This document shows positions 11,301 to 64,000 of a stretch of DNA of 64,000 bases, piece after piece. Made by a program: the position numbers and the translations under genes. Source of the DNA: Skeletonema tropicum (lineage: Eukaryota > Bacillariophyta > Thalassiosirophyceae > Thalassiosirales > Thalassiosiraceae). The notes beneath the pieces were generated by a model. It was not told where the DNA came from and did not search any database. It saw nothing but the letters and a program-made list of their open reading frames with translations. The DNA lies in contig CM074129.1 of the NCBI GenBank assembly GCA_037178625.1, positions 868,001 to 932,000 on the forward strand. Direction: 5' to 3'. The first letter of the stretch is position 1; each line of letters opens with the position of its first letter.

Positions 11301-11507
11301 GCCTGAGATGAGTAGGACGAACATGTTGTCGGCGGATGCATTGCAATAATTTGTGCGTGTTGACAAGAAGGGTTTATCTAGAGATCAGCGCAGTGAATGA
11401 ACAATGCACAATGCAATGCTAAAATGGCGAACTCGATGGGCCTGCGTGTAGGTATATGAGTAGGTCGATTGCCAGGGAATGGAGGGTGACAATCTTCATA
11501 TTCGAAT
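8314..11507. repeat. Higher-order repeat, 3 units, period 1,591 bp
   Basis: Within the satellite a block of three units (498, 504 and 589 bp) is duplicated in tandem: features at 8314, 8812 and 9316 recur at 9905, 10403 and 10907, each exactly 1,591 bp later. The two short-unit types occur only in this block. The second copy has since gained extra TTG/CTG triplets and a GCCTGA duplication in its third unit. Confidence 0.9.
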
Positions 11508-18071: not shown

Positions 18072-18672
18072 CTATCGACTTCTTCTCATCATTGCTGCTG
18101 TATCACCTCCATCGGAAGAGGAGTTGTTCGAAGTACTTCTACTTATATAATAGCGAGGATCAGATCGCATGGTGAGACAAACGTTATGAATTTCACCCTT
18201 GATGATTTTTGTAGCATTGCGTGATATATAATGATGATTGTTATTCGTCAGATGTTGTTGTTGTTGTTGTTGTTGCTGCTGCTGTTGACTCGTTTGATAA
18301 TTATAATTATTTGGTTTCACATCAACGCTGTGTAGTTGTGGAGAGGAGCGCGAGACATTATTTGGAGAACTGCCGGCCATATCCATATCACTTTTATCAT
18401 TTCGCTGCGGGTGCGGGCTTTTGGTTGTTGCAGTTGTCGCAACCGTGTGATCGAGAAGAGCCTGAGCCTGAGATGAGTAGGACGAACATGTTGTCGGCGG
18501 ATGCATTGCAATAATTTGTGCGTGTTGACAAGAAGGGTTTATCTAGAGATCAGCGCAGTGAATGAACAATGCACAATGCAATGCTAAAATGGCGAACTCG
18601 ATGGGCCTGCGTGTAGGTATATGAGTAGGTCGATTGCCAGGGAATGGAGGGTGACAATCTTCATATTCGAAT

Positions 18673-21600
18673 CTATCGACTTCTTCTCATCATTGCTGCT
18701 GTATCACCTCCATCGGAAGAGGAGTTGTTCGAAGTACTTCTACTTATATAATAGCGAGGATCAGATCGCATGGTGAGACAAACGTTATGAATTTCACCCT
18801 TGATGATTTTTGTAGCATTGCGTGATATATAATGATGATTGTTATTCGTCAGATGTTGTTGTTGTTGTTGCTGCTGCTGTTGACTCGTTTGATAATTATA
18901 ATTATTTGGTTTCACATCAACGCTGTGTAGTTGTGGAGAGGAGCGCGAGACATTATTTGGAGAACTGCCGGCCATATCCATATCACTTTTATCATTTCGC
19001 TGCGGGTGCGGGCTTTTGGTTGTTGCAGTTGTCGCAACCGTGTGATCGAGAAGAGCCTGAGCCTGAGATGAGTAGGACGAACATGTTGTCGGCGGATGCA
19101 TTGCAATAATTTGTGCGTGTTGACAAGAAGGGTTTATCTAGAGATCAGCGCAGTGAATGAACAATGCACAATGCAATGCTAAAATGGCGAACTCGATGGG
19201 CCTGCGTGTAGGTATATGAGTAGGTCGATTGCCAGGGAATGGAGGGTGACAATCTTCATATTCGAATCTATCGACTTCTTCTCATCATTGCTGCTGTATC
19301 ACCTCCATCGGAAGAGGAGTTGTTCGAAGTACTTCTACTTATATAATAGCGAGGATCAGATCGCATGGTGAGACAAACGTTATGAATTTCACCCTTGATG
19401 ATTTTTGTAGCATTGCGTGATATATAATGATGATTGTTATTCGTCAGATGTTGTTGTTGTTGTTGTTGCTGCTGCTGTTGACTCGTTTGATAATTATTTG
19501 GTTTCACATCAACGCTGTGTAGTTGTGGAGAGGAGCGCGAGACATTATTTGGAGAACTGCCGGCCATATCCATATCACTTTTATCATTTCGCTGCGGGTG
19601 CGGGCTTTTGGTTGTTGCAGTTGTCGCAACCGTGTGATCGAGAAGAGCCTGAGATGAGTAGGACGAACATGTTGTCGGCGGATGCATTGCAATAATTTGT
19701 GCGTGTTGACAAGAAGGGTTTATCTAGAGATCAGCGCAGTGAATGAACAATGCACAATGCAATGCTAAAATGGCGAACTCGATGGGCCTGCGTGTAGGTA
19801 TATGAGTAGGTCGATTGCCAGGGAATGGAGGGTGACAATCTTCATATTCGAATCTATCGACTTCTTCTCATCATTGCTGCTGTATCACCTCCATCGGAAG
19901 AGGAGTTGTTCGAAGTACTTCTACTTATATAATAGCGAGGATCAGATTGCATGGTGAGACAAACGTTATGAATTTCACCCTTGATGATTTTTGTAGCATT
20001 GCGTGATATATAATGATGATTGTTATTCGTCAGATGTTGTTGTTGTTGTTGCTGCTGCTGTTGACTCGTTTGATAATTATAATTATTTGGTTTCACATCA
20101 ACGCTGTGTAGTTGTGGAGAGGAGCGCGAGACATCATTTGGAGAACTGCCGGCCATATCCATATCACTTTTATCATTTCGCTGCGGGCTTTTGATTGTTG
20201 CAGTTGTCGCAACCGTGTGATCGAGAAGAGCCTGAGCCTGAGATGAGTAGGACGAACATGTTGTCGGCGGATGCATTGCAATAATTTGTGCGTGTTGACA
20301 AGAAGGGTTTATCTAGAGATCAGCGCAGTGAATGAACAATGCACAATGCAATGCTAAAATGGCGAACTCGATGGGCCTGCGTGTAGGTATATGAGTAGGT
20401 CGATTGCCAGGGAATGGAGGGTGACAATCTTCATATTCGAATCTATCGACTTCTTCTCATCATTGCTGCTGTATCACCTCCATCGGAAGAGGAGTTGTTC
20501 GAAGTACTTCTACTTATATAATAGCGAGGATCAGATCGCATGGTGAGACAAACGTTATGAATTTCACCCTTGATGATTTTTGTAGCATTGCGTGATATAT
20601 AATGATGATTGTTATTCGTCAGATGTTGTTGTTGTTGTTGCTGCTGCTGTTGACTCGTTTGATAATTATAATTATTTGGTTTCACATCAACGCTGTGTAG
20701 TTGTGGAGAGGAGCGCGAGACATTATTTGGAGAACTGCCGGCCATATCCATATCACTTTTATCATTTCGCTGCGGGTGCGGGCTTTTGGTTGTTGCAGTT
20801 GTCGCAACCGTGTGATCGAGAAGAGCCTGAGCCTGAGATGAGTAGGACGAACATGTTGTCGGCGGATGCATTGCAATAATTTGTGCGTGTTGACAAGAAG
20901 GGTTTATCTAGAGATCAGCGCAGTGAATGAACAATGCACAATGCAATGCTAAAATGGCGAACTCGATGGGCCTGCGTGTAGGTATATGAGTAGGTCGATT
21001 GCCAGGGAATGGAGGGTGACAATCTTCATATTCGAATCTATCGACTTCTTCTCATCATTGCTGCTGTATCACCTCCATCGGAAGAGGAGTTGTTCGAAGT
21101 ACTTCTACTTATATAATAGCGAGGATCAGATCGCATGGTGAGACAAACGTTATGAATTTCACCCTTGATGATTTTTGTAGCATTGCGTGATATATAATGA
21201 TGATTGTTATTCGTCAGATGTTGTTGTTGTTGTTGCTGCTGCTGTTGACTCGTTTGATAATTATAATTATTTGGTTTCACATCAACGCTGTGTAGTTGTG
21301 GAGAGGAGCGCGAGACATTATTTGGAGAACTGCCGGCCATATCCATATCACTTTTATCATTTCGCTGCGGGTGCGGGCTTTTGGTTGTTGCAGTTGTCGC
21401 AACCGTGTGATCGAGAAGAGCCTGAGCCTGAGATGAGTAGGACGAACATGTTGTCGGCGGATGCATTGCAATAATTTGTGCGTGTTGACAAGAAGGGTTT
21501 ATCTAGAGATCAGCGCAGTGAATGAACAATGCACAATGCAATGCTAAAATGGCGAACTCGATGGGCCTGCGTGTAGGTATATGAGTAGGTCGATTGCCAG

Positions 21601-22740
21601 GGAATGGAGGGTGACAATCTTCATATTCGAATCTATCGACTTCTTCTCATCATTGCTGCTGTATCACCTCCATCGGAAGAGGAGTTGTTCGAAGTACTTC
21701 TACTTATATAATAGCGAGGATCAGATCGCATGGTGAGACAAACGTTATGAATTTCACCCTTGATGATTTTTGTAGCATTGCGTGATATATAATGATGATT
21801 GTTATTCGTCAGATGTTGTTGTTGTTGTTGTTGCTGCTGCTGTTGACTCGTTTGATAATTATTTGGTTTCACATCAACGCTGTGTAGTTGTGGAGAGGAG
21901 CGCGAGACATTATTTGGAGAACTGCCGGCCATATCCATATCACTTTTATCATTTCGCTGCGGGTGCGGGCTTTTGGTTGTTGCAGTTGTCGCAACCGTGT
22001 GATCGAGAAGAGCCTGAGATGAGTAGGACGAACATGTTGTCGGCGGATGCATTGCAATAATTTGTGCGTGTTGACAAGAAGGGTTTATCTAGAGATCAGC
22101 GCAGTGAATGAACAATGCACAATGCAATGCTAAAATGGCGAACTCGATGGGCCTGCGTGTAGGTATATGAGTAGGTCGATTGCCAGGGAATGGAGGGTGA
22201 CAATCTTCATATTCGAATCTATCGACTTCTTCTCATCATTGCTGCTGTATCACCTCCATCGGAAGAGGAGTTGTTCGAAGTACTTCTACTTATATAATAG
22301 CGAGGATCAGATTGCATGGTGAGACAAACGTTATGAATTTCACCCTTGATGATTTTTGTAGCATTGCGTGATATATAATGATGATTGTTATTCGTCAGAT
22401 GTTGTTGTTGTTGTTGCTGCTGCTGTTGACTCGTTTGATAATTATAATTATTTGGTTTCACATCAACGCTGTGTAGTTGTGGAGAGGAGCGCGAGACATC
22501 ATTTGGAGAACTGCCGGCCATATCCATATCACTTTTATCATTTCGCTGCGGGCTTTTGATTGTTGCAGTTGTCGCAACCGTGTGATCGAGAAGAGCCTGA
22601 GCCTGAGATGAGTAGGACGAACATGTTGTCGGCGGATGCATTGCAATAATTTGTGCGTGTTGACAAGAAGGGTTTATCTAGAGATCAGCGCAGTGAATGA
22701 ACAATGCACAATGCAATGCTAAAATGGCGAACTCGATGGG
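18673..22740. repeat. Higher-order repeat, 4 units, period 2,365 bp, second copy broken
   Basis: Units at 18673, 19268 and 19854 recur at 21038, 21633 and 22219, all offset by 2,365 bp. Diagnostic variants shared by both copies are the single NY-type ATAATT with no GCCTGA duplication in the second unit. In the third unit they are GGATCAGATTGC, ACATCATTTGG, and loss of GGGTGC with a G-to-A change. The fourth unit of the second copy is cut at 22741, where about 265 bp are missing (GATGGGC is joined directly to GTTGTTGCTGC). Confidence 0.88.
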
Positions 22741-24260
22741 CGTTGTTGCTGCTGCTGTTGACTCGTTTGATAATTATAATTATTTGGTTTCACATCAACG
22801 CTGTGTAGTTGTGGAGAGGAGCGCGAGACATCATTTGGAGAACTGCCGGCCATATCCATATCACTTTTATCATTTCGCTGCGGGCTTTTGGTTGTTGCAG
22901 TTGTCGCAACCGTGTGATCGAGAAGAGCCTGAGATGAGTAGGACGAACATGTTGTCGGCGGATGCATTGCAATAATTTGTGCGTGTTGACAAGAAGGGTT
23001 TATCTAGAGATCAGCGCAGTGAATGAACAATGCACAATGCAATGCTAAAATGGCGAACTCGATGGGCCTGCGTGTAGGTATATGAGTAGGTCGATTGCCA
23101 GGGAATGGAGGGTGACAATCTTCATATTCGAATCTATCGACTTCTTCTCATCATTGCTGCTGTATCACCTCCATCGGAAGAGGAGTTGTTCGAAGTACTT
23201 CTACTTATATAATAGCGAGGATCAGATCGCATGGTGAGACAAACGTTATGAATTTCACCCTTGATGATTTTTGTAGCATTGCGTGATATATAATGATGAT
23301 TGTTATTCGTCAGATGTTGTTGTTGTTGTTGCTGCTGCTGCTGTTGACTCGTTTGATAATTATAATTATTTGGTTTCACATCAACGCTGTGTAGTTGTGG
23401 AGAGGAGCGCGAGACATTATTTGGAGAACTGCCGGCCATATCCATATCACTTTTATCATTTCGCTGCGGGTGCGGGCTTTTGGTTGTTGCAGTTGTCGCA
23501 ACCGTGTGATCGAGAAGAGCCTGAGCCTGAGATGAGTAGGACGAACATGTTGTCGGCGGATGCATTGCAATAATTTGTGCGTGTTGACAAGAAGGGTTTA
23601 TCTAGAGATCAGCGCAGTGAATGAACAATGCACAATGCAATGCTAAAATGGCGAACTCGATGGGCCTGCGTGTAGGTATATGAGTAGGTCGATTGCCAGG
23701 GAATGGAGGGTGACAATCTTCATATTCGAATCTATCGACTTCTTCTCATCATTGCTGCTGTATCACCTCCATCAGAAGAGGAGTTGTTCGAAGTACTTCT
23801 ACTTATATAATAGCGAGGATCAGATCGCATGGTGAGACAAACGTTATGAATTTCACCCTTGATGATTTTTGTAGCATTGCGTGATATATAATGATGATTG
23901 TTATTCGTCAGATGTTGTTGTTGTTGTTGCTGCTGCTGTTGACTCGTTTGATAATTATAATTATTTGGTTTCACATCAACGCTGTGTAGTTGTGGAGAGG
24001 AGCGCGAGACATTATTTGGAGAACTGCCGGCCATATCCATATCACTTTTATCATTTCGCTGCGGGCTTTTGATTGTTGCAGTTGTCGCAACCGTGTGATC
24101 GAGAAGAGCCTGAGCCTGAGATGAGTAGGACGAACATGTTGTCGGCGGATGCATTGCAATAATTTGTGCGTGTTGACAAGAAGGGTTTATCTAGAGATCA
24201 GCGCAGTGAATGAACAATGCACAATGCAATGCTAAAATGGCGAACTCGATGGGCCTGCGT

Positions 24261-24734: not shown

Positions 24735-24795
24735 TTTTCCATCGGGAGGATCCAAAGTAGGTAGCTACGCTACTTTGGATCTCCCCGATGGAAAA
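24735..24795. repeat. Long inverted repeat (26-bp arms)
   Basis: The arms are 24735-24760 and 24770-24795 and match at 24 of 26 positions. The central GTAGCTAC (24761-24768) is itself palindromic. The whole could extrude as a cruciform or fold into a strong RNA hairpin. It lies just past the decayed retroelement fragment and may be its 3' end or a separate small element. Confidence 0.75.
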
Positions 24796-24799
24796 GATA

Positions 24800-25392
24800 T
24801 GCCTTGTACGCTGGCCCACGCCCACGATATGCCAACAAAACTTATGACTGTCAGAAATGACAGATGCCACGCCTTTTCTCATTCTTGAGACTTATTGATT
24901 CAAATTTTTTGTGGCCTGTCTCCACGCATTCTTTTATGTGCCCTGCTCCACGCAATTAGAACCGCTGATGAAGGTGGCTAAGCTCCACCGAAACTCGTAA
25001 TTAATGAATCATAAAGAGTTCGGTTATATTGCTTACTACCATCATCTGGAAAAACTCCTAACCTAACTTGTAATAAGGACTTCGTGGCTTATTGCATTCA
25101 AGACATTTCTTTTCACATTGATAAAGATTCTTCTAGCGTTATTGGTACTTTTAAAGTGGCACTTGATATATCCACTCTCGACGTTTTGGATCAATGTGGG
25201 AACGCAGCACGTCATTATGCTCACCGCAGCGTCAGGCATGGCATGGCACCATTGCGCTTCTCTTGGAGTTTGGGCATTGGTAGCCTTTCGTGTCACCTCA
25301 CTGCACAGTGCAATAGGCAAGTAAAATGTAAAAAGGATTACAAAAGCAGTCTTTATATTCATTATGTCCTAGTCTGAATTGAAAGGTGAGAT
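24800..25392. other. Non-coding stretch
   Basis: No gene is supported. A short hairpin, GGTGG paired with CCACC around CTAAGCT, lies at about 24975-24991. Overlapping short frames at 25063-25377 on both strands have no recognisable features. Confidence 0.3.
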
Positions 25393-26466: not shown

Positions 26467-26966
26467 NNNNNNNNNNNNNNNNNNNNNNNNNNNNNNNNNN
26501 NNNNNNNNNNNNNNNNNNNNNNNNNNNNNNNNNNNNNNNNNNNNNNNNNNNNNNNNNNNNNNNNNNNNNNNNNNNNNNNNNNNNNNNNNNNNNNNNNNNN
26601 NNNNNNNNNNNNNNNNNNNNNNNNNNNNNNNNNNNNNNNNNNNNNNNNNNNNNNNNNNNNNNNNNNNNNNNNNNNNNNNNNNNNNNNNNNNNNNNNNNNN
26701 NNNNNNNNNNNNNNNNNNNNNNNNNNNNNNNNNNNNNNNNNNNNNNNNNNNNNNNNNNNNNNNNNNNNNNNNNNNNNNNNNNNNNNNNNNNNNNNNNNNN
26801 NNNNNNNNNNNNNNNNNNNNNNNNNNNNNNNNNNNNNNNNNNNNNNNNNNNNNNNNNNNNNNNNNNNNNNNNNNNNNNNNNNNNNNNNNNNNNNNNNNNN
26901 NNNNNNNNNNNNNNNNNNNNNNNNNNNNNNNNNNNNNNNNNNNNNNNNNNNNNNNNNNNNNNNNNN
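26467..26966. other. Assembly gap (500 N)
   Basis: Exactly 500 N bases, which is likely a placeholder of arbitrary length. Open frames running across it are artefacts. Confidence 0.99.
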
Positions 26967-49257: not shown

Positions 49258-51962
49258 GCGACCTATCTCACTCCAGTCAGCGACGAACGGAATGTCAAAT
49301 AACATATCACGTCCAAAAATTGCTTCACCAGGAGTAGCCTTGAGCACGGTGTGGTAAGTAGATCGAATTGCCCATGCAGCATTTGTGATAAATTGGTCAA
49401 TTCGGTGGCCATCGACGGTATCATCGTCGTCGAGGCCCGAGGTGCGGAGCATGTCGTTGAAGACTCCGTGAACTCGTTCTAAAATCGCATTAGCTTGCGG
49501 ATTCTTACTGGTAGTCGGCTTACGTCCAATCTGATACTGTTCACACAGATCCTTCAGATGCAGTTCGAATTCAGAACCATTATCACACACCAAATACTTC
49601 GGGCGCGGATAACGACTTAACCAGCATTTATTCAAGAGGTGGGAAACTGTAGCGGAAGTTTTATCAATGATTTCTACTTCGACAGTTTTTCCTGTCCGAG
49701 GACATTTCTTCTCGATCATCCTATTAGGGAGTTCGACTATTTCGAACCATCCAGTAGCAGCGTCAATCATGGTTAAACACATGAAATCCATTTCAGTTCC
49801 ATCTTTTGATTTGATTGTTGTTGGACCGATTAAATCGCAATGGAGCGTCTGCCATGGAACAACGATCGCATCCTTAGGAGGAAGTTGACCGTACTTACGC
49901 TTGCGTGCCTTAGATTTCTGACACCTGGGACAATATTTACACAATCTACGGATTTGTGCACTCATGCCACGCCAATACATGACGGCGCCGATAGTACCTT
50001 CCATACGGTCAGTACCAGGATGTTGCAGATAGTGGTGATACCACATAAGAACTTTAGATTGCAGCTTCTCAGGGATGATGAGCTTCGGACGAGCCGAAGG
50101 TCTGTCCTTTCGAACCAAGACAACAGTGTCGTCTATGATCATCTTCTGATTACGACTGTCGGCACCAGGCCGTTCGAAAATGTGCTTCATCTTTGGATCT
50201 TCCCGTTGGGCATCTGCTATCTCCTTGACGGTGACTGGGTAAATTTCCTCGTCATCGGCTGCTGAATTTGCAAACACATGTGACATGCAATCCTTTGGCT
50301 CTATCACATCTTCTCTATCCAGAACACACTCATCATCGTTTTGATAATGAGAGAAGAGAGAGACCAGCTTATTCCACTTGCGGTGAGAATATTCTGACCT
50401 GAAGTTCCCTTTGCTGTCGAGTTCGTCTTCTGGATGAGGGTTGATTTTTGGGCAATAATCTAATCGACTAATGGCATCAGCAACGGTATTATCAACACCC
50501 TTGATGTACCTAATGTCGGCTCCATACTCATTGAGGAGTAGATTCCATCTCTGCACTCTGTCAGAGGTGCTGCCTAAGCTGTCTCGAACGAGATTCTGAT
50601 GATCTGTATAAATCACCAGCTTCTGTCCAAGCAGCATACCTTTGAATTCTTTCAAGAGTTCGACGATAGAAAGCAATTCAAGTTCCGTCACAGTGTACTT
50701 CATTTGCGCGGCAGTTAACTTCCGGCTGAAAAAGGCAATGGGACGGTTATTTTGCGTAATCACTCCCCCAAGCTGGCGAGTTGAAGCATCAGTAAAGATA
50801 GTGAACTCTTCACCGAAGTTCGGGTAGGCCAGGATAACATCTCGGGCGATTACCTTCTTGATCTCATCAAACGCATCCTGATGAACCTGCTCCCACCGCC
50901 ACGGCGGCTTCTTTTTGGTAGAGCGTTTAGTGGTTCCACATTCTCCAACTAGATCAGTGAGTGGAGCGAGGAGCTGTGTTCTTGACACCCACAGGTCACG
51001 GTAATACTGAATAATACCGAGGCAACGTCGAAGATCTTTCACGTTACGAGGTGGTTTGAGAGCAAGGATAGCGGCGACTTTGGAATGTTGTGGTGCAATT
51101 CCTTGTTTGGTGAGATGATACCCAAGGTAATCAATCTCTACGGCTGCGAATTTACTTTTGGCTGCGTTGACTTGCAGACCAGCGTCGCTTAATTTTTGTA
51201 ATACCACGTCGAGTTTCTCCAGGTGGTCTTCAAAGGTTCCTTTGGATAGGCAGAGCAAATCATCAATGTAAGCCTGCACGTAGTCCAACTCAGCAAAGAG
51301 TGAACTCATTTTACTTTGGAAGATGTCCGGGCTACAAGCAACTCCCATTGGAAGTCTTTTGTACCTGTAAATTCCCCAAGGAAATACAATGGCGCAAATC
51401 TTCATCGTCTCGAGATCAAGCTTCAAATGGTAATATCCCATATTGAGATCAATCGCTGAGGCAAAAGTAAAGCCTTCCATCTGTTGCAACATACCCGATA
51501 CCTTAGGAAGCGGGAAGGGGCGTCGCACTAGCGCTTTGTTAAGCTGGCGGAAGTCGGAGAGGAAGCGGACTGTGCCGTCTGACTTAGGAATAATAAAAGA
51601 TGGACTGAGCCAGTCTGCTTGTTGCACCTGCTCCAGAACTCCTATATCAATTAAGCGTTGAAGTTCTTTCATAATTGTTGCTTTGTGTATCTGTGGGACA
51701 TCAAACGGTCTACCACGGAACGGTTTCACATCTGGCTTAAGCTCAAAATGGACTTCCTCACCTTTCCATTCACCGAGAGATCCGCTAAACATCTTCTCAT
51801 GTTTCTTGAGTAAGTTGAGTAGTTGAAGTCTCTGCATTCTGGAGAGATGAGAGCAATTTTCATCGACGATCTTTTCGAGATCGGCGGCTTCATACTTGGC
51901 ATCCAAAATCTTGACGGCTCTGTCAGTCTCCTCTTTAGTTGACTGACACAGGCTAATAGATG
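49258..51962 (-). mobile_element. Ty3/gypsy retrotransposon copy A, pol fragment
   Basis: Minus-strand pol frame with reverse transcriptase, RNase H and integrase in gypsy order. Both ends are incomplete. On the 3' side it stops at 49258, where copy B continues with 90 more integrase residues. On the 5' side the frame stays open up to the LTR edge at 51963, and protease and gag are absent. It is nearly identical to copies B and C, with no length difference over the overlapping parts (constant offsets of 3,598 and 12,543 bp), so it is recent. Confidence 0.9.
49258..51962 (-). CDS. Gypsy pol: reverse transcriptase, RNase H, integrase (truncated)
   Basis: The frame reads without a stop from the LTR edge to 49258. 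The start of the original protein lies upstream and is lost; the first alternative start codon (51906, TTG) is not a real start. In order: a connector with I-L-D-A-K-Y, RT with the catalytic Y-I-D-D and the upstream L-P-M-G-V box, RNase H beginning F-T-I-F-T-D-A-S with the T-E-L-E-L and Y-T-D-H motifs, the integrase zinc finger H-H-x(n)-C-P-R-C, and the integrase core with D-L-I-G, C-D-N-G and the glutamate in A-I-L-E-R. No chromodomain is seen. All catalytic residues are present, but the missing ends make this copy inactive. Confidence 0.9.
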
Positions 51963-52282: not shown

Positions 52283-53902
52283 CTCTCCCCCGTGCTGTTC
52301 GGATTTAACAGTGGGCTCAGTGAGAGAAAAACCCTGTGGGAAAAATTACTCTCATAGAGGAGTGCGTACGGTATTTTCTTGAATACCGGTGACGTGTACG
52401 TGAAAGACTGTAAGACTGGTTTGCGACAAAAGACACGAGAAGCCAAGGCTGACGTGTGTGTAAGCTTATGATAGGGTTTGATCAAATCAACTGTTGTCTA
52501 GTATGAAATAGTGTTGATGTGTTGGAATAATTCTTCTAATTTCTAGGTTATGAAAGCTGTACACTCCCCCAAGTTATTCATTCTAACTTGCATCGTTGGC
52601 TTCTTCTGCCTCAAAGAAGGGGGTAAGTCGTCGGATATTGATTCGTTCATTGACGGAACCACGTTGAATACGGACAGTACCATTAGTAAAGACATTTGTG
52701 ACCACATACGGTCCCTCATTCTTGTCTAAAGCTTTGCGCTGCTTTTCACCATTGATCTCACTGATGATTAAGCACTTACTCCCTGGAACATAGTCGTATG
52801 GGAGACGCCTTTTGTTTTCTCTGGCGTTGTTCCTGTCCACGAGCTCTTGTCGGCGGCGACCTATCTCACTCCAGTCAGCGACGAACGGAATGTCAAATAA
52901 CATATCACGTCCAAAAATTGCTTCACCAGGAGTAGCCTTGAGCACGGTGTGGTAAGTAGATCGAATTGCCCATGCAGCATTTGTGATAAATTGGTCAATT
53001 CGGTGGCCATCGACGGTATCATCGTCGTCGAGGCCCGAGGTGCGGAGCATGTCGTTGAAGACTCCGTGAACTCGTTCTAAAATCGCATTAGCTTGCGGAT
53101 TCTTACTGGTAGTCGGCTTACGTCCAATCTGATACTGTTCACACAGATCCTTCAGATGCAGTTCGAATTCAGAACCATTATCACACACCAAATACTTCGG
53201 GCGCGGATAACGACTTAACCAGCATTTATTCAAGAGGTGGGAAACTGTAGCGGAAGTTTTATCAATGATTTCTACTTCGACAGTTTTTCCTGTCCGAGGA
53301 CATTTCTTCTCGATCATCCTATTAGGGAGTTCGACTATTTCGAACCATCCAGTAGCAGCGTCAATCATGGTTAAACACATGAAATCCATTTCAGTTCCAT
53401 CTTTTGATTTGATTGTTGTTGGACCGATTAAATCGCAATGGAGCGTCTGCCATGGAACAACGATCGCATCCTTAGGAGGAAGTTGACCGTACTTACGCTT
53501 GCGTGCCTTAGATTTCTGACACCTGGGACAATATTTACACAATCTACGGATTTGTGCACTCATGCCACGCCAATACATGACGGCGCCGATAGTACCTTCC
53601 ATACGGTCAGTACCAGGATGTTGCAGATAGTGGTGATACCACATAAGAACTTTAGATTGCAGCTTCTCAGGGATGATGAGCTTCGGACGAGCCGAAGGTC
53701 TGTCCTTTCGAACCAAGACAACAGTGTCGTCTATGATCATCTTCTGATTACGACTGTCGGCACCAGGCCGTTCGAAAATGTGCTTCATCTTTGGATCTTC
53801 CCGTTGGGCATCTGCTATCTCCTTGACGGTGACTGGGTAAATTTCCTCGTCATCGGCTGCTGAATTTGCAAACACATGTGACATGCAATCCTTTGGCTCT
53901 AT
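52283..53902 (-). mobile_element. Ty3/gypsy copy B: 3' part of the element interrupted by X
   Basis: It carries the 3' untranslated region (52283-52582) and pol from the stop at 52583 to the break at 53902. At the break the sequence reads CTTTGGCTCTAT and then enters element X. In copy A the same site reads CTCTATCACATC, and copy C restarts with ATCACATC at 62846. B and C are therefore the two halves of one element split at one point. A second purine-rich run (near 52565-52572) follows the pol stop. Confidence 0.9.
52583..53902 (-). CDS. Gypsy pol, integrase half (interrupted)
   Basis: About 440 residues of pol: the segment before integrase, the integrase zinc finger, the D-D-E core, and the full C-terminal region ending in D-A-S and a stop at 52583. 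The C-terminal part, absent from copy A, has G-S-K-C and a K-N-E-G-P-Y-V-V strand followed by the I-N-I-R-R-L segment, which fits the SH3-like C-terminal domain of gypsy integrases. The frame extends upstream past 53902 into element X by chance; those residues are not pol. Confidence 0.88.
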   Translation of the reverse strand: MEPKDCMSHVFANSAADDEEIYPVTVKEIADAQREDPKMKHIFERPGADSRNQKMIIDDTVVLVRKDRPSARPKLIIPEKLQSKVLMWYHHYLQHPGTDRMEGTIGAVMYWRGMSAQIRRLCKYCPRCQKSKARKRKYGQLPPKDAIVVPWQTLHCDLIGPTTIKSKDGTEMDFMCLTMIDAATGWFEIVELPNRMIEKKCPRTGKTVEVEIIDKTSATVSHLLNKCWLSRYPRPKYLVCDNGSEFELHLKDLCEQYQIGRKPTTSKNPQANAILERVHGVFNDMLRTSGLDDDDTVDGHRIDQFITNAAWAIRSTYHTVLKATPGEAIFGRDMLFDIPFVADWSEIGRRRQELVDRNNARENKRRLPYDYVPGSKCLIISEINGEKQRKALDKNEGPYVVTNVFTNGTVRIQRGSVNERINIRRLTPFFEAEEANDAS

Positions 53903-53969
53903 AAACAGGGGCGCGCAGAATGGTGCGATAGTAGTGGCGTGCAGCGGTGTATGTGGCGGGTTCAGCGCG

Positions 53970-53982
53970 GGCCCTCGGGGCC
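53970..53982. repeat. Subterminal inverted repeat of element X, left copy
   Basis: GGCCCTCGGGGCC lies 67 bp from the left border. Its inverted copy GGCCCCGAGGGCC (62832-62844) is one base from the right border. Inverted repeats placed at unequal distances from the two ends are described for Helitron2/Helentron elements. Confidence 0.55.
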
Positions 53983-54095
53983 TGTAAAGTATTGTGTCGT
54001 CATCTTGCTCTGTTGGCCATTTGCCGTGTGGCTTGTCAGTAGTCTTTATACAACGGAATTCGGCTATAAAGTTGCTCTGCAATGACGTTGGCCTT

Positions 54096-54132
54096 AATTG
54101 GTATAATTGTGCTGTGCACAATTTTACCAATT
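54096..54132. promoter_or_regulatory. Element X palindrome, best copy
   Basis: Two 17-base arms around a TGT spacer: AATTGGTATAATTGTGC and GCACAATTTTACCAATT, with one mismatch. Related dyads occur at 54287-54309, 55882-55908, 55966-55990, 56040-56066, 58374-58400, 59303-59330, 59385-59413, 62326-62352 and more loosely 62418-62465. All lie in introns or between or after genes. Confidence 0.7.
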
Positions 54133-54314
54133 AGTCTCTTTACAATAGAATACGGCTATAAAGTTGCTCTGCAATGACGTTGTCTTTAATTGTGTTAGAA
54201 TTGTGAAAATCATCTATCTGTCCATCGGCACTAGTATTTGTGTAGGGATTTGAGAGAAGATTGCAGTGCGCCTGATCAAATTATATATAATTGTGCTGTG
54301 CACACTTATACCAA

Positions 54315-56665
54315 TTAGTACATTGTCCGGCAGTCATTCGTCGTCTCAACTGTTTGTTTTCGGATCATGATACCAAGCTTGTTCTTACCAATACTCAATC
54401 TCAAATCATTCGCCATATCTTTGGTTTGCGACATGATGCTGAAGGCATTTAAAGTTTGATCAAGCAAGGCATCTGCGTTGAACAGTTTGGCAGACTCGAC
54501 TGTGTAGACCAACGCTGCAGTACTTGTCGCCATGATCCCTTCAACTGACCTGTCCCATAGTTTAGGCGTGTCATTGTATTTTCCATCAGTATCATCCTTG
54601 GGTATCACAATCGTGTTCACTCCTGATCTTGGCATAATAATTCCGCCTGCCAACATTGCGCTTATCTGCTTTGAGGTAAATAGCTGCATTCCATCAGTTT
54701 CAAGCAATGACTGTACCGCTACCGCGAGTGGGAAAAATCTGGCCATGCTGTGCTCAACAGTCATCGGGTAGTTCCCTGTAGAACCGAAGTTGTCCATATT
54801 ACACTTGACAGGCAATTTGAGTACATCATTTGGTCCTCCACCATCAACTCTGAGCTGCACTTCGTTTTGGCACGTCTCGTATTCACGCATTGGATTCTCG
54901 TAGTATTGAGTGAGCGGCTCTTCGGTGAAACTTGGGTCATCTTCAAACTCTTCAAGTGTCCTTGCCGTTCGCGCTCTCAGCCCCTTTATGGTCAAAACTT
55001 TACCTTTGCTGACTATCTTACCGTTAGTACCAACTTCCTTCTCAGTCCAATCCTCATGGTCTCTTCTCACAGAATTATGCTTAGTTAAGCCTCTGTATAT
55101 ATTTAGTACTGTTGATCCAAGCTTCCTTTTGCTCACGTTCTTGCTTTTCTCGGCTAGAAGAGTTTCCGCGAGGTGAGGCGCGGGGAAAGATTCGGTAGCA
55201 GTCCTTGATGCTACTGTAATGTGAGCGTCGAAGGGGTGGCTCAATATTGCATCACTGTCCGATTTTTTCAATTTCTCAAGAGCATTCTCCATGGCGTCAT
55301 GTTCGTTATCTTCAATTCCTACGAATGAATTGGTCAAGAACGTCGGATCTCCGGGATTGCTTGGCTTGAAGAAGTAGCCTGACTCTCTCTTCACTTTGCA
55401 TCGCAGCAGAGCTGCCAATAATGCTATCAAGCGGTGGTTGCCTTCAACAGCTGTGACATAGAATTTCAATGAAGCAGTGAAGGAAGTGTAGAAATGACCA
55501 AATCCCTCGATACCATCTTGGACTGCCACATTGACTTCATTTTGACTTTCATCTAGCCAATGGTGCTTTCTTGCAGTGCTCAAAAGCTTTCGTTGACCTT
55601 CGACTGTTGTCACATTAGCAGTTAATGCCTCTGATATTTCTCTTTTCGTTTCATCTGTGCCACTACCATCATCTCCGTTGAGTACGTCGATTAAGTGTGA
55701 TAGCTCTGGAACATACGTGAATGGCAATCCGTAAGCCACACTAGTCCTCGCTTCTTCACTGGATGCAATCAATGACATATGAGTTGCATTGACTGGTTCT
55801 GTCTTCTCCTGTTATTAATGTGGAGTAGCATCAATCAAGTGTTAGTTGTGAGTTCAGCAACGGATCTATAAATCAATATTCGTATAATCGCACAGTGAGC
55901 AATTATACAAATCAAGTAGCATGATGTAGTTTGGCTGCAGCAATCGATCGACGAATCAATATTACCAAAATTGTACAGTGATCAAATTTACAAATTCGTT
56001 CTGTGCAACATCGCAATCGATCAACGAATCAACATTCCCAAATTTGTACAGTGATCAATTTTACAAAATGGTTCGTTGCGCAGATTCAACAAAAGTAAAC
56101 TCACGCAATCTTCCGCGGAATCATCCTCCGCTGCTTTCTTGCTGAAGTGTAAGTGTATCTGACTGTCGTTCATTTCTTTGTTGTCGCCGGATTTACCCGT
56201 AGCCACCAGTTTCAATAGCCCGAGTATCTTCTCTTGCTGTGGTACCGCTTGATTTACATTCTCCGCTACCAATTTGCCTTCTTTATCCAAATGGGTGAAG
56301 CAAACGAAAACCGTAGCACTAATTTTTGTTGGCAGGCCCGTATTTGTGCCTTTGATGTAATGCTCAGGTCGATCTTCCTCGACTTGCTGCGTAGTCGTTT
56401 CTGTACCTGCTGTTGGTTTGTCAGGGGTGATAACGTTGTTGGTGGTTGGTCTGGTGACAGCCTCGGCAGTATGATCGGTAGGTGTGTTATTCTTTCCGGG
56501 GGTGTTCATCTGGTTGTCCGGCGGACTCGTTGTCTCCTTTAACGTGCTTTTTGCGTCCACAGCTTCAGCTGCAGATTCAACCGCAGATTCAGTTGCATCT
56601 GTAGCTTCAGGTGAGTTCATGGTGTCGTCGTTATCGTGTTCAGTTGGATGTTGTTTGTCGGTCAT
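54315..56665 (-). CDS. Element X gene 1: 684-aa protein of unknown function (two exons)
   Basis: Exon 1 is 56665-56105 and exon 2 is 55808-54315; the 296-bp intron begins GTGAGT, ends AACAG and is phase 0, giving 684 residues. Without splicing each frame stands alone, so the join is inferred. Residues 1-100 are disordered and rich in Thr, Glu, Asp and Pro. A conserved-looking block follows (about 105-187). In exon 2, residues 305-320 read A-V-E-G-N-H-R-L-I-A-L-L, reminiscent of the D-G-x-H-R motif of ParB/DndB/AIPR-type proteins. The C-terminal 250 residues show no motif I know. If the motif is real the protein could bind or process nucleic acid. The intron contains three palindrome-bearing tandem repeats. 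Confidence 0.55.
55860..56070. repeat. Three tandem units of about 80 bp in the gene 1 intron
   Basis: Each unit contains AATCGATCGACGAATCAA or a variant followed by the element palindrome. The dyads are at 55882-55908, 55966-55990 and 56040-56066, spaced 84 and 74 bp. The last two share TTGTACAGTGATCAA and then TTTACAAA. Confidence 0.6.
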
Positions 56666-57531
56666 GATTTGGTGGAGCGCTGTTGCGTTTTATGCGAGAT
56701 CTGTGCGGCGGATTCGTTGGGTGCGGTGCTTTGCTCTGAATTACTTCCGGAACTTAAACTTGAAGTGTTGGGATTTTCCCCCCTCCTATCCCCGCTGAAA
56801 TGCCCATTTTGATTGTCATTTAGATGCTATATCTTATGATTTAGATCTAAAAATCGCTTGATTTGTGCTAGAAAGGACTTTTCCAGGCTAATTAAGTCAG
56901 ATTGTCGATGAGCTTCTTCGTTCTTTCCGGTGTGCATCCCCGTCACCATCTATTTTCTTCATTTTTTCTCTGAGTGACGTGGTAAACTTCGTTACTTAAG
57001 GAATTAGTACACTTGATTCCAATCGTCTTACGTCACAAAGTACCAGAAGTCAGGTGTTGGCAAAATCCAATGAACAAAAAAGTATTTAAGTTCATGCAGC
57101 AAGTACTCAGGTCGACATTGGCTCAATTACATTATCTGCCGAGTCGTCTATTGATGCAAGTCTAAATAGACGCCGACGTTGGTTGCCGACGTGTTTGCAT
57201 TTGAATAACTGCCGATCTTTGGCCACGTACTGATCAATACGTCAGTTCTTAACTCCACGTCGACGTCTTGTGTTGAGCTGAATCTTTTTGTCGACGTGTT
57301 GTCGATGTGTTGAACCACAAGATCTTGTGTTGCCGACGTAGCTTACGAAGGAACTCGTTTACTTCATGACGTGGTTGGTTATTGATTGCATTGTTCTCTG
57401 CTGATTATTGCGCTGGTGCGTTGGCGACGGTTATGTAGGCAGTTTGTACGTTGTCGAGCCGTTCAACAGCTCTCATAAATTATGCATTGCATCATTTACA
57501 TCATCACATTTCTACATTGTCCGAATAAATA
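56666..57531. promoter_or_regulatory. Bidirectional promoter region of element X
   Basis: 866 bp between the divergent starts of gene 1 and gene 2, and the only large non-coding interval of X without the palindrome. It holds five copies of G-Y-CGACGT at 57172, 57185, 57259, 57290 and 57332, including the perfect palindrome ACGTCGACGT (57257-57266). CGACGT contains the ACGT core recognised by bZIP proteins. Clustered binding sites for a shared regulator are a reasonable inference. No gene is seen. Confidence 0.5.
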
Positions 57532-59595
57532 ATGAAGTTTGGCAACACAAATCCAGTTATATCCACCGTTGGTAGTAATGGTAAGGGCTTCCGTGCCGTG
57601 CGGAATCGGAGCAATGTCGATGCACGTCTTACTTCGTCAGGGGTCAAGACTGCCGCTAAACCGTCGGCTCCTGTCATTGCATTGAGCGTAACAGACATCA
57701 ATTGGCGTTTGGTGCGTACCGACGATCGTATCTTCTCGCTGCTAGCGTCTGTTGCATTAGGCGATGGGTTTGACGTTGCCAAGTTGGAGAAGGAACAACT
57801 GCTCTTTTCTGCTCTTTCCGTCTTTGAAGTCGGGTCAATCAAGTACATCCTGAATGAACTGTCTGAACATTACCCGAATGTCCCAGTTGGTAAGACTGAT
57901 TCTACTGACAAAGATGATCTGGTGTCTGCAGCGGTCAACTTCTTAATGTTTGCCGCTATTGCTCAGAAAGGAGGTACAAGCCAAGCGCCGTACACTTCAA
58001 ATTGTGAGCATTTTTGGTAAGAGAGAAGGTTAACCTTCGTGTGGTTCAATGATTTTGGTATTTTTGTTCATTGTACCGTTTTACAAATTCTGTCTTTCCT
58101 TTTTACTTACAAGTTTTTTTTTCAACCTTCAACTTCACACCAGTGATGAGAACGGGAAACTTGTACTTGAAGACAAAACTCATTCGGGCTCCCGTGATCA
58201 ACCTGTTCAAGATGATGATGAACCGGATTTGTCCGAGAAAGGTGCTGTCACGAAAAAGTCTAAACCGGTACCTGTCCGAGAGAAGGCCTCTCCTGATTCA
58301 ACTATCATGTGAGTTTATTTTGTGTGCATGTGCACTGCCGCACTAAGTATCGCTTGCTTATTGAATCATTTTAGTATAATCGATCACTGAACAATTTTAC
58401 CTAATAAATAAATGCAACTGCCTTCTACATAGCGAGAATGAGTGGGTTGATTACACCCATTCAGATCTCTCGGATGGATGGAAAAGGAAGAGTATCAAGC
58501 GTAAGGGCGGCAAATCCCGCGGAACTATTTACCACCATTACCTCTCCCCTGACAACAAAGTTTTCAAGAGTTTGACGCGAGCGAAGGCACATTCCTCTCC
58601 ATCGAACGTCACTGAGACTGCTCCTCCCTCGTCTAAGTCGAATGGCAATCCTAATGACTTCGTTGATACTGTTGATTTGATTGCAAGAGGTGATATTGCT
58701 GATAGTGTACAACGACTCAGGAAACTCGTTGTAAATGAGTATCAAGAAACTTTTTCTGTTACGGACGATGTTGACAATTTGGCAATGTCGAAATTAGCAA
58801 AGAAGATGCGATTGAAACAAATCATTACAGCTGGTGCGGATCATGTTCAGAGGCCGACCGGTGACAAGTTGGTACCGAGGAACACTTTTAGTATCCTCCA
58901 CGCACTCGCTTGTGTAGTTGATAACGTGGCTCTCAACACAGAGGAGAAACTGCTGCCGTTCGTCGCTGATGTCATGTATATGGCTGCGAATGAACCCTTC
59001 TATCCTCGTATCAAAAGAGTGATGGACGAATTCATTTATGAATGCGAATACTCATACAACAAAGTACATCGCTCGATTGACTGGTATTTCACATTGCTCG
59101 ATGTATTGAGCACAATCATGTGTCTTGAAATTTGTGTGCTGCTGCCACCTGATGGATGCCATGGAGAAAGCGGTGAAACGAGGATTGTTTCCTTCGCTCC
59201 AGGCGGAGGAAACCTGCACTGTGCAAAGGTAAGTGTGCTCTGAAGATGAAAGTTGTCTCTCACACTGAATTCAGTGCAGTTGTGTATTCCGCCATCTTCT
59301 TTGGTAAAACTGTGCGGTGCACAATTTTGCAAATTGAAACAAAATCTTACGCTGGGTAACCTCACTGTATTCCGCCATCGACTTTGGTAAAACTGTGCAG
59401 TGCACAATTTTGCAAATTGAAACAATCGAACACTGTTAACCCCACTGCTAACACAACCTACCGCCACTATTAATTCTCACCTCCCAGCAAAAGCTCCGAG
59501 GATATAAGTGGTGTCCAAACATTGGTGAAAATGTCACTGAACTGGATGACAAGCAAAAGGCTCATCAGCATACAAGAGGCGGTGCACGAGATTGA
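57532..59595 (+). CDS. Element X gene 2: protein with MBD-like domain (four exons)
   Basis: Exons 57532-58016, 58144-58308, 58433-59228 and 59488-59595 give 517 residues. All introns are GT-AG (GTAAGA, GTGAGT, GTAAGT donors) and all phases agree. Around residues 217-265, spanning the start of exon 3, is D-G-W-K-R followed by R-K-G-G-K-S-R-G and Y-L-S-P-D. This spacing fits a methyl-CpG-binding (MBD/TAM) domain. N- and C-terminal parts have no known motif; the linker before the domain is acidic and lysine-rich. A chromatin- or DNA-reading role for the element is inferred. The last exon overlaps the helicase start by 65 bp in another frame, so the two may be alternative splice products or the last exon may be wrong. 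Confidence 0.55.
59283..59425. repeat. Direct repeat carrying two element palindromes
   Basis: A 60-bp segment starting TGTATTCCGCCATC occurs at 59283-59342 and again at 59366-59425 with three differences seen. Each contains a dyad of the form GGTAAAACTGTGC-nnT-GCACAATTTTGC. It lies in the last intron of gene 2, just upstream of the helicase start, and could act on helicase expression. Confidence 0.65.
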
Positions 59596-62326
59596 TAGGC
59601 TGAGTTTAACACTCTGTTCAGATGTGATCACTTACGTGTCGGTTCAGAATTGTCTGAAGCTACGAAAATCATCCGACCCTAAGCCAAACGACTTGGTCTA
59701 TAGCTATGCAAGCAGGGAGGAAAAGTACAGCAAACTGACCTTGGATCAGTACTTTTACAAGGAGTGGTGTAGGAAAAAGTTCATGATAGACCCTGACAGC
59801 AATAGACGCATGAACAGGATACTCATCGCCAAAGGACTCAATTGCAGACCACGTTACCCGGTGGACTACGATTATGCAAGAGGAATGTTGTTACTTCACA
59901 AGCCATGGAGCTTCGACAAACCACTTAATTTACGCGACAGACAGAGAACAATCAATACATTCAAGTTGATGCTGCAGAAAAGACAGGTCCCTACAAGTGT
60001 TTGGACCGAATACCAGAGAGCTGTTAGATACGCGCAAGAAAAAAGGATCGAATGTGTGGCAAGAAAAGGGACAATTCAAGCAGATGTCAACATTGACGAG
60101 CTCGACGATGACGAGGTAGATCAACACCTGAATCATTTGCACTCGACCCAACTCTCTGATAGGAAAGTGGATGAGTTACTTTTGGGGGGCAAGAAAATCG
60201 ACGTAGGATTGAATCACGATTGGTCGAAGAGCTCGTTTGATGGAGAAAGAGACGTAACAATACCAGGGGAGGAGTACACAGTCAAACTCAGAGAGCAACG
60301 TGCCAGAGCCATGATGGACGATCATTCAGGCGCAACAATACCCACGAAATCTGACGGATCAAGTTACAACATCGAGGAACTGTCCGAGGAACAGGCGATG
60401 ATCGTACTCGCCACTGTCGATACTGTGGTGAAATTCCTTGATAATGACGAGGATTACAAGCCGCTACGAGCAACAATTACAGGAATGGGTGGGTGCGGGA
60501 AATCGCTGGTAATTAACACCATCATTTCCATCATCAGGAAGCTGACCGATTCGAACAAGACAGTCCAGGTTGCTGCTCCTTCAGGCAGCGCAGCGTACAA
60601 CGTCAAAGGGTGCACGCTGCACTCACTTCTGGGAATTAACGTACAGGTACCTTACAAATCATTGGACGCAAAAAGAAGAGAAGAAATGTGCAATAAACTG
60701 AAAGAGCTGCTCGTACTGATGGTCGATGAAAGAAGCATGTTGGGCTCACACGTAACATTCGGTGCAGAGGAGCATGTGAGAGATTGCGCATTTAATGGGC
60801 ACAATAAACGGGAGAGGTGGGGCGGTGTCCCGGTTGTGTTGTTCTTCGGTGACGACTACCAGCTGCCACCGTCCAACAAGGGGGGAGCAATAAACGGCTA
60901 CCACGAATACCACAACAACGATAGGCCAAAAACAATGACAGGAAAGAGTAAAAACAATCAAATATGCGATTACGAGGGTAGCAAAATCTTGACTGAGATG
61001 ATGACGGATGTGGTCTTCATGTTGACGAAGAATTTTAGAGCAAAAGACAAGGAGGATAGCGATCTCATGAACAGGATGAGAGTGGGGAACCAGACTGATG
61101 AGGATGCAAAGCGCCTGATCAAACTACACATAGACGAACTCGGAAAATATCATCCAAAACTGAGGGAAGAGGTAGAAAATGACCCAAAGACGTTGTGGGT
61201 ATACGCGAAACGGGACGATATGTCCCAGAAAAATGTAGACATGCTGATCAAAACACACGAACGACTGAAAGTACCAATAGCTAGGCTCAGGTGTCAATTC
61301 AGCAGCAGGATGGCGGGCAATAACACAGCATACCAGTCGCACTTTTACGGCAGGAGGCTATTCTACACCTTTGATGTGTGCGTAGGTGCACATGTTTGCT
61401 TGGAGTCAGCCAACATCGATCCCAACTCAGGATTGTACGTCTCAGCTATTGGGGTAGTTGTCGAGATCGTTTACGATAAGGATCGCTCCGTTGGACCAAA
61501 CGGTAAAGGTGAGGTTAGCCTACCGAAGTACATTGTTGTGGATTTCCCTACATACAAACCACCACCAGGCGAGGACCCATGGGACAAGAACAACCCAACG
61601 GTGAGTAAAAGTTGACACACGAAAGACACAAGACAATTGCCACTCTCTGCGAAAACACTACTAACTCATTTCATACTGATACAAATGCATCCTACCCCAA
61701 CTTATTGCGCACAGCACGTGCCAATCCCACCCTACGAGCAGATTTGCAACAGAGGATGCTGCACCGCATTATTCATGCCATTGCAAATTGCCTACGCCAT
61801 CACCATCCACCGCTGTCAAGGACTCGAAGCTGGATTCGACAAAGGAGACCGCTGGAACCGCATGATAATAGATCCAGCAGATGAGTTGTGGGAGATTAGC
61901 AAGTTTCTTGGAACAATGTACGTGGCTACCAGCAGAGGCAAAACACTTGGCTCCAAAGATCAAGCATACCCGTCGGACAGTGCCATATACTGGACCGGAA
62001 GCAACATTTCAACGAACCGATTAAAAAATTGCAAGAGAAAGCAAAATGGCCAGTTCTGCGAATCGTACAAGAAGCGAGCAAATTGGGTGAAATACTTGGA
62101 GGGGAAGGCAGAAGAGTCGAAGACAAGGTATAGCAAGAGAAAGTTGGAAGAAATCACAGAAACATCGTACGCAGCAGCAATCAAGGGCAATTTCATCAAA
62201 GACAGGACAGACCTGACAACCAGGATTACCAACATCATAACCAACCCGAACAAGAAGTGGAAAGAAGCGAAGAAGGATCATGAAATCCCAAGTGATTACT
62301 TCGCAGGATCTTCATCTGGTGATTAG
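59531..62326 (+). CDS. Element X gene 3: PIF1/Helitron-type SF1B DNA helicase (two exons)
   Basis: Exons 59531-61600 and 61715-62326 encode 893 residues; the 114-bp intron is GT-AG, phase 0. Helicase motifs are intact and in order: Walker A G-M-G-G-C-G-K-S (318-325), Walker B V-D-E-R-S (398-402), G-D-D-Y-Q-L-P-P (440-447), T-K-N-F-R, and, in exon 2, H-R-C-Q-G (722-726) and V-A-T-S-R (760-764). The N-terminal 150 residues include S-I-Q-E-A-V and Y-D-Y-A-R-G-M-L-L-L-H-K-P-W, features I associate with the segment between Rep and helicase in Helitron-like proteins. No HUH nuclease motif precedes it. It would unwind DNA 5' to 3' during element replication. The ATG at 59531 was chosen; the frame is open upstream to 59489. 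Confidence 0.85.
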
Positions 62327-62845
62327 TAAAATTGATCACTGCACAGTTTTACAAAACAGACACTTTCTCAACACAAAGAATACAACAACTCAATTAAGCG
62401 TCTGCATCTGGTGATCAGTAAAACATCTGCAAGCGCACGATTCGATATATCAAGCACAGTTTTACAAAAAGACATTTTCTCGTGACGAAGAAAGACAAAA
62501 ACTAAATCGACTAACGCCCGTGTAAAACCTGTATTTCTTTCTCGTACAGACCGATTTAGATGCTCAAAAAGCGCATCTAGTACAGTCAATTTCTCGCTTT
62601 CAACAGGTACTTCTTGCTTTCTACATAGGAACACATACAGATCCTACGCCGGTAGTCTCTACCGAGGACTCTACGTGTCCCTAAAGTAAACCTTCTCACT
62701 AAAAAACACATGTACTGATTCCTACCTATAACTCTGTAGAATAATGGGGGTGAAAAATAATGAATTTTCCCACCTGTAATAGAAGGGCACCTGCGGCCCC
62801 CTATTACGCTGCTCTGCACTCCATGAACGGGGGCCCCGAGGGCCG
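62327..62845. other. Right terminal region of element X
   Basis: 519 bp after the helicase stop. It begins with two palindrome copies (62326-62352 overlapping the stop codon, and a looser 62418-62465). A stem-loop, GTAATAG (62776-62782) with CTATTAC (62801-62807), sits about 40 bp from the end, followed by GGGGGCCCC and the terminal GGCCCCGAGGGCC (62832-62844). No gene is seen. Confidence 0.6.
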
Positions 62846-64000
62846 ATCACATCTTCTCTATCCAGAACACACTCATCATCGTTTTGATAATGAGAGAAGA
62901 GAGAGACCAGCTTATTCCACTTGCGGTGAGAATATTCTGACCTGAAGTTCCCTTTGCTGTCGAGTTCGTCTTCTGGATGAGGGTTGATTTTTGGGCAATA
63001 ATCTAATCGACTAATGGCATCAGCAACGGTATTATCAACACCCTTGATGTACCTAATGTCGGCTCCATACTCATTGAGGAGTAGATTCCATCTCTGCACT
63101 CTGTCAGAGGTGCTGCCTAAGCTGTCTCGAACGAGATTCTGATGATCTGTATAAATCACCAGCTTCTGTCCAAGCAGCATACCTTTGAATTCTTTCAAGA
63201 GTTCGACGATAGAAAGCAATTCAAGTTCCGTCACAGTGTACTTCATTTGCGCGGCAGTTAACTTCCGGCTGAAAAAGGCAATGGGACGGTTATTTTGCGT
63301 AATCACTCCCCCAAGCTGGCGAGTTGAAGCATCAGTAAAGATAGTGAACTCTTCACCGAAGTTCGGGTAGGCCAGGATAACATCTCGGGCGATTACCTTC
63401 TTGATCTCATCAAAAGCATCCTGATGAACCTGCTCCCACCGCCACGGCGGCTTCTTTTTGGTAGAGCGTTTAGTGGTTCCACATTCTCCAACTAGATCAG
63501 TGAGTGGAGCGAGGAGCTGTGTTCTTGACACCCACAGGTCACGGTAATACTGAATAATACCGAGGCAACGTCGAAGATCTTTCACGTTACGAGGTGGTTT
63601 GAGAGCAAGGATAGCGGCGACTTTGGAATGTTGCGGTGCAATTCCTTGTTTGGTGAGATGATACCCAAGGTAATCAATCTCTACGGCTGCGAATTTACTT
63701 TTGGCTGCGTTGACTTGCAGACCAGCGTCGCTTAATTTTTGTAATACCACGTCGAGTTTCTCCAGGTGGTCTTCAAAGGTTCCTTTGGATAGGCAGAGCA
63801 AATCATCAATGTAAGCCTGCACGTAGTCCAACTCAGCAAAGAGTGAACTCATTTTACTTTGGAAGATGTCCGGGCTACAAGCAACTCCCATTGGAAGTCT
63901 TTTGTACCTGTAAATTCCCCAAGGAAATACAATGGCGCAAATCTTCATCGTCTCGAGATCAAGCTTCAAATGGTAATATCCCATATTGAGATCAATCGCT
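62846..64000 (-). CDS. Gypsy copy C: RT-RNase H half of the interrupted pol
   Basis: It continues the copy B element beyond the X insertion: RNase H, then RT from its C-terminal thumb back through Y-I-D-D to M-G-Y-Y-H, running off the window edge. It matches copy A with a constant offset of 12,543 bp and only two base differences noticed over 1,155 bp (near 63414 and 63634). The frame extends leftwards into X by chance up to 62722. Together B and C would restore one open pol frame if X were absent, which shows X inserted into an intact or recently intact element. Confidence 0.9.

Follow-up and report, generated by a model that had tools for sequence, protein, structure and literature searches.

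The 8.9-kb insert that splits a gypsy pol gene in Skeletonema tropicum is very probably a non-autonomous element derived by internal deletion from a 19.8-kb Helitron; the Helitron2 type is the most likely one, but as a subgroup it is less certain than the Helitron superfamily. The window analysed here is a stretch of 64,000 nucleotides (contig CM074129.1, forward-strand positions 868,001 to 932,000), in which a first-pass annotation had described a multi-gene element of unclear class and put it forward as a candidate for a new mobile system. The family is new and its class is already known: the Helitron Rep that the window copy has lost is still encoded, along with the helicase, in a longer copy that shares both of its ends. 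This is an outcome that the first-pass annotation had itself named as a refutation, and the insert represents neither a new class nor a new mobile system.

Self-comparison of the window gives an insert of 8,945 bp (Table 1). An uninterrupted gypsy copy nearby (copy A) preserves the empty site: its bases 49258-50304 equal window 52856-53902 on the copy B side of the insert (0 differences in 1047), and its bases 50303-51457 differ from window 62846-64000 on the copy C side at 2 of 1155 positions. These alignments bear out the clean insertion into pol, with its borders and empty site, as well as the earlier view that B and C are halves of one split gypsy copy (1047/1047 and 1153/1155 bases match copy A) and the two substitutions noticed between C and A. 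The only run of Ns in the window, a 500-base assembly gap at 26467-26966, is remote from the insert borders. The window also holds a tandem array of ~595-bp units (7145-24260), mostly 97-99% identical in the self-comparison and without an Rfam match; at gathering scores, an Rfam scan of the whole window gave no match.

Table 1. Features of the insert and its empty site, in window coordinates.
Feature	Position	Strand	Remark
Whole inserted element, T...A	53902..62846	-	Empty site in gypsy copy A; same-length copies elsewhere
Gypsy copy A, empty site at 50303/50304	49258..51457	-	Window self-comparison
5' asymmetric terminal inverted repeat GGCCCTCGGGGCC	62832..62844	-	2 bp from 5' end
3' inverted repeat, same 13 bp reversed in orientation	53970..53982	+	68 bp from 3' end
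Weak 3'-terminal hairpin, 4-bp stem	53914..53927	-	~12 nt from 3' end
PIF1-type helicase, C-terminal part of Rep-Hel, predicted intron ~61601-61714	59474..62326	+	PF05970
Two ORFs, 54315-55811 and 56021-56689	54315..56689	-	No Pfam match
Two ORFs, 57529-58020 and 58380-59243	57529..59243	+	
Deletion junction 1	54366..54367		8,986 bp of the 25.4-kb copy absent; ~3.45 kb relative to the copia-free copy
Deletion junction 2	59206..59217		7,452 bp absent; 10-bp filler
Palindrome copies	54101, 54285, 55882, 55965, 56038, 58374, 59304, 59387, 62326		

Identical ends recur at many other sites with differing flanks, so the insert is real and not an assembly join. The search for other full-length copies, proposed in the first-pass annotation, yielded four more of 8,945 bp at other sites, three identical and one with 1 difference. 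Used as query, the first 2 kb of the insert gave 41 matches (40 of 261 candidates scored), five of which span the full 2 kb, most of the others beginning only from window 54367 inward; the last 2 kb gave 42 matches (40 of 363 candidates scored). Allowing 3 mismatches, the genome contains 137 matches to the 37-bp left end and 206 to the 35-bp right end, the reversed control giving 0 for each. Pairing by nearest distance set 75 of the 137 left ends against 85 of the 206 right ends; a partner was identified for 47 of these 75, leaving 28 unpaired, and some of the long pairs (one of 34.6 kb, for example) may be false. The lengths among the 47 pairs include 20 of 3,884-3,932 bp, 5 of 4,655 bp, 4 of 8,945 bp, 3 of 12,159 bp and 3 of 19,833-19,844 bp; the fifth 8,945-bp copy (C40) lies outside these pairs. 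Eight copies assigned to the 12.2-kb class are identical across the 8,250 bp compared. Within a class the copies show near-zero divergence, and the family is recently active. This near-zero divergence, and the position of several copies at the ends of small contigs, might be read as an artefact of assembly, an explanation to which the 23 distinct left and 17 distinct right flanks and the uninterrupted target sites elsewhere in the assembly leave next to no probability. The insert is mobile, young, multi-gene and precisely placed, as had been claimed.

Two further observations concern individual copies. The copies on C62, C17 and C11 (L034, L042 and L045) have one common left flank, perhaps a repeat or a segmental duplication, and the right flanks of the C62 and C17 copies differ. 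In L050 (C12:1956138-1960253), a 3.9-kb derivative, positions 382-725 may be a captured repeat, being 86% identical to window 24755-25129.

The class of the element is given by a copy at C3:374236-399606 (read as L027, L028 and L029), on the same contig as the window insert, which totals 25.4 kb (25,371 bp excluding the outer T and A) and has both ends of the window copy. Its Rep ORF, open over 480 codons, matches PF14214 (Helitron_like_N) at 75.5 bits against a cutoff of 28.9, and finds 452 relatives with E no higher than 0.001. In an alignment of 14 Reps (the query and 13 taken from 120 of these relatives), the HUH residues H266 and H268 (H-L-H) and the tyrosines Y455 and Y459 (Y-x3-Y) are invariant; a PDB sequence search with the Rep, both as a single sequence and as a profile, found no relative. 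The longer copy also encodes a DUF6570 region (81.2 bits, cutoff 24.3) and a Ulp1-type protease (PF02902, 40.1 bits, cutoff 20.7), the latter split across two overlapping ORFs of which the second scores under the cutoff. The features that define the Helitron superfamily—an HUH Rep, two tyrosines and a PIF1-type helicase—are thus together in the 25.4-kb copy, and the window copy has the helicase only. Among 40 Rep loci scored of 51 candidates, 17 are full-length at 99-100% identity, 10 are partial and 11 are at 76%, and two further loci are cut at base 1 of a contig.

The first-pass annotation was correct that no Rep is present in the window copy, since the gene falls in a stretch deleted from it. 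The absence of Rep from an element that nevertheless exists in five near-identical copies could suggest a new kind of element, mobile by means of the helicase and other proteins of the window copy alone; however, Rep is encoded by the longer copy, whose ends are the same, and L050, the 3.9-kb derivative that was read, retains only the helicase end, in a size class that accounts for 20 of the 47 end pairs, so that Rep-free mobility is extremely improbable.

Two deletions separate the window copy from the longer one. Of the first gap, 5.5 kb is a copia-type LTR element nested in the C3 copy (L027 3550-9086; identical 443-bp LTRs, 5-bp repeat). Comparison of 17 loci with that copy shows the copia to be missing from 13 of the 13 that reach its site; three end-to-end pairs that are free of it measure 19.83-19.84 kb. 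The second deletion removes the remainder of a 965-aa ORF, the Ulp1-type protease, DUF6570 and Rep.

Among the genes kept in the window copy, the helicase is the clearest, matching PF05970 at 62.1 bits (cutoff 25.9) and PIF1 structures with a best E of 3.4e-12. Its frame is broken by a single stop, between ORFs of 713 and 236 aa, within a predicted GTGAGT...CACAG intron; since this stop is present in 17 of 17 loci holding the stretch, and the GTGAGT...CACAG stretch aligns poorly between the two lineages described below, the region reads as a predicted intron. The protein of the minus-strand ORF 54315-55811 has five relatives at E up to 0.001 with no Pfam domain listed, and its C-terminal end, beyond junction 54367, derives from the left-end segment. 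ORF 58380-59243 is the truncated start of the 965-aa ORF of the longer copy, which has four relatives at the same threshold and likewise no Pfam domain listed. A methyl-CpG-binding role for the 965-aa protein was considered and finds no support: the sole match to an MBD is below threshold (17.1 bits, cutoff 21) and lies in the truncated window form, and Pfam gave no MBD match in the full ORF or its four relatives. Fold prediction gave no usable model for the minus-strand protein (mean pLDDT 30.4, 6 sequences) or for a relative of the 965-aa protein (30.5, 4 sequences).

The structure of the ends bears on the subgroup. From the position of the inverted repeats we infer that the 5' end is at 62846 and the 3' end at 53902, so that Rep-Hel is antisense relative to the transposon. 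The repeat GGCCCTCGGGGCC is the longest exact one between the outer 120 bp of both ends, and 13 bp was reached in 0 of 1000 dinucleotide shuffles. In transposon orientation the element starts with TC (62846-62845, minus strand); its last 17 bases at the 5' end are GGGGCCCCGAGGGCCGA, and its 3' end is CCTGTTTA, not CTRR. Terminal hairpins are possible and are no better than those of shuffled sequence. The 5' repeat can pair with itself in the terminal 30 nt (stem GGCCC/GGGCC, loop TCG); with these 30 nt folded as DNA, 82 of 200 shuffled sequences reach an equally good fold, and over the terminal 60 nt a different fold is favoured. The self-hairpin of the 3' repeat is equalled by 22 of 200 shuffles, and the 3'-terminal hairpin (-2.6 kcal/mol) by 36 of 200, the latter not being preferred in a 96-nt fold. 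RNA folds of the ends agree with these results.

The target site was read from flanks and from empty sites. We compared 26 left and 17 right flanks (23 and 17 distinct), excluding L001-L005 as repeats of L009-L012 and the window. T is the last base of all 23 distinct left flanks, with A before it in 20 of them and C in the other 3; the right flanks (n=17) have A at +1 in all 17, T (12), C (4) or A (1) at +2, C (11), A (4), T (1) or G (1) at +3, and A (16) or G (1) at +4. Of 54 candidate places for the joined flanks of L010, 40 were scored and all 40 match across the junction; the match spans the full 300 bp in 39 of them and has the exact top score in 3. The joined flanks of L011 are found over the full query at 22 of 26 places, 15 of them at the exact score; a search across the genome with the joined flanks of L009 gave no empty site. 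Insertion without target-site duplication is seen at three empty sites, namely the window locus (context A^T), L010 and L011 (both C^T). The comparison of copy ends with empty sites for which the first-pass annotation had called thus yields, at L010 and L011, empty sites of 100% identity and zero duplication; where it had allowed a target change of up to 2 bp (AT), the change is 0 bp. L010 and L011 exclude both a duplication of 2 bp (AT) and insertion at T^A, and the one-base choice that these empty sites leave is settled by the flank columns, which place the ends of the element at T...A. Read along the transposon, the target becomes T-N-(A/G)^T, for which TNA^T is the best notation.

A canonical Helitron (Helitron1) has a 5' TC, inserts at A^T and carries a 3' hairpin ~10 nt from its end; the TC start and A^T preference in transposon orientation (A^T at the window site, C^T at L010 and L011), and the weak hairpin ~12 nt from the 3' end, agree with such an element. 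It is nonetheless unlikely, given that the 3' end differs from CTRR and that both ends share a 13-bp inverted repeat. Because of the shuffle controls on the hairpins we rate Helitron1 slightly higher, and the Helitron2-type reading slightly lower, than we otherwise would. Helentrons, relatives of Helitron2 that possess an endonuclease domain and insert at TT, resemble the family in their asymmetric inverted repeats and frequent deletion derivatives, as described in part of PMC4067079; yet no endonuclease, OTU or RPA match was found in the 22 distinct ORFs scanned with Pfam (unspliced, longer ORFs), and the empty sites are A^T and C^T rather than TT, which makes a Helentron very improbable.

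The preferred class, Helitron2, was described by Bao and Jurka in 2013 (PMC3627910), and the portion of that account used here gives an asymmetric inverted repeat of 8-15 bp located 0-2 bp from the 5' end, a 3' repeat 20-30 bp from the 3' end and just upstream of a hairpin, and a TTTT^T/C target. The diatom element resembles this description in its 13-bp repeat 2 bp from the 5' end, in its first base T and the lack of target duplication at full-length ends, and in its antisense Rep-Hel, an arrangement sometimes found there (Helitron-2_CRe, Helitron-1_DR). It differs in that its 3' repeat is 68 bp from the end, its terminal hairpins are not better than chance, its target is TNA^T-like, and its length is 19.8 kb, with extra genes including the Ulp1-type protease. 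Helitron2 elements are further marked by a 5' terminal hairpin built from the repeat; here the repeat can form one in the terminal 30 nt, at the strength of shuffled sequence. The distance of the 3' repeat varies within the Helitron2 group, since FoHeli elements have it 38-51 bp from the end (PMC5148889, in part). As described in the same source, FoHeli1 of Fusarium oxysporum also has a TC start and a repeat recurring in inverted form upstream of the 3' end, and FoHeli1/2 and the Helitrons of Chaetomium globosum share with the diatom element a TNAT target, low copy diversity and non-autonomous copies; the diatom element ends in TTTA rather than ATTTT and belongs to another host group, the comparison being one of descriptions only. 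Proto-Helentron-Pi of Phytophthora infestans (~14 kb) is similar in its several extra genes, its duplication-free A^T insertion and its lack of an endonuclease, whereas its ends are 5' TT and 3' CTAG, its extra genes include a SET-domain gene, and the part of PMC4067079 consulted describes no comparable inverted repeat for it.

The genome contains a second Helitron lineage with at least 11 Rep loci, of which the one read, L051 (C17:1191000-1198500), has a Rep 76% identical to that of the first and open Rep and helicase frames. Judged by eye in this one copy, its right side has the same final 17 bases followed by TCA, where family homology stops. Between the lineages, dN is 0.13 for Rep and 0.33 for the ORF upstream of the DUF6570 part, with dS saturated in both, and dN/dS values are 0.20/3.2 and 0.25/1.5 for the larger and smaller parts of the helicase and 0.22/3.0 for the DUF6570 part; dS is close to or beyond saturation, so these ratios are rough. 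They point to protein-level constraint on Rep-Hel and the other parts compared. That the deleted classes are mobilised mainly by this second Rep-Hel, and not by that of the 19.8-kb family, is suggested by the number of its Rep loci and by the end that L051 seems to share; it is doubtful, however, as the 8.9-kb copies match the longer family almost exactly throughout and the C3 copy has an open Rep frame of its own.

For a Helitron2-type element with its own Rep, transposition may be envisaged as follows. Rep supplied by a longer copy would nick at the 62846 end, and the Rep-helicase would peel off or replicate one strand as far as the 53902 end; the strand would then be joined into a TNA^T-like target that is not duplicated. 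Deleted copies such as that in the window, retaining both ends, could be mobilised in trans.

The element carries a 27-bp palindrome of the type GTAAAATTGTGCAGTGCACAATTTTAC, which, with 7 mismatches allowed, is present at 9 places within it and at 0 places elsewhere in the window; the pattern was built from the element's own copies, so these counts are no independent test. There are 12 copies in L027-L029 and none in L051, and genome-wide the palindrome is found at 344 places within 3 mismatches (reversed control 0), some of the variants being unmatched to a known copy. The idea that the palindromes are introner-like introns was dropped, at least one copy lying directly at the helicase stop (62326) and none being present in the 7.5-kb second-lineage piece.

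The Ulp1-type protease, the large unassigned proteins and the ~12 palindromes dispersed over the element (of the type GTAAAATTGTGC..GCACAATTTTAC) could conceivably form an anti-silencing or replication-control module, in which an element protein would recognise the palindromes as VANC/KIU proteins do VANDAL motifs. We regard such a module as a long shot, made less likely by the absence of the MBD-like match from the full 965-aa ORF and its four relatives; if true, it would help explain the recent burst of the family. VANDAL/KIU elements of Arabidopsis, in the part of PMC13317346 drawn on, likewise encode a Ulp1 domain and have short motifs in their own noncoding DNA, but they are Mutator-type DNA transposons and not Helitrons. 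A portion of PMC2836005 attributes Ulp1 domains to Ginger and Mutator elements and OTU domains to some Helitrons. Among the papers listed for Helitrons and Helentrons, including those of diatoms and stramenopiles and those with Ulp1 or Pif1, no title or abstract opening describes the family, which may have been annotated in a diatom genome paper.

One genome thus offers, for one young Helitron family, a natural series of full-length copies, several deletion classes and empty sites—a series in which to study the end sequences required, the Rep responsible for moving deleted copies, and the role of a Ulp1-type protease in a Helitron.
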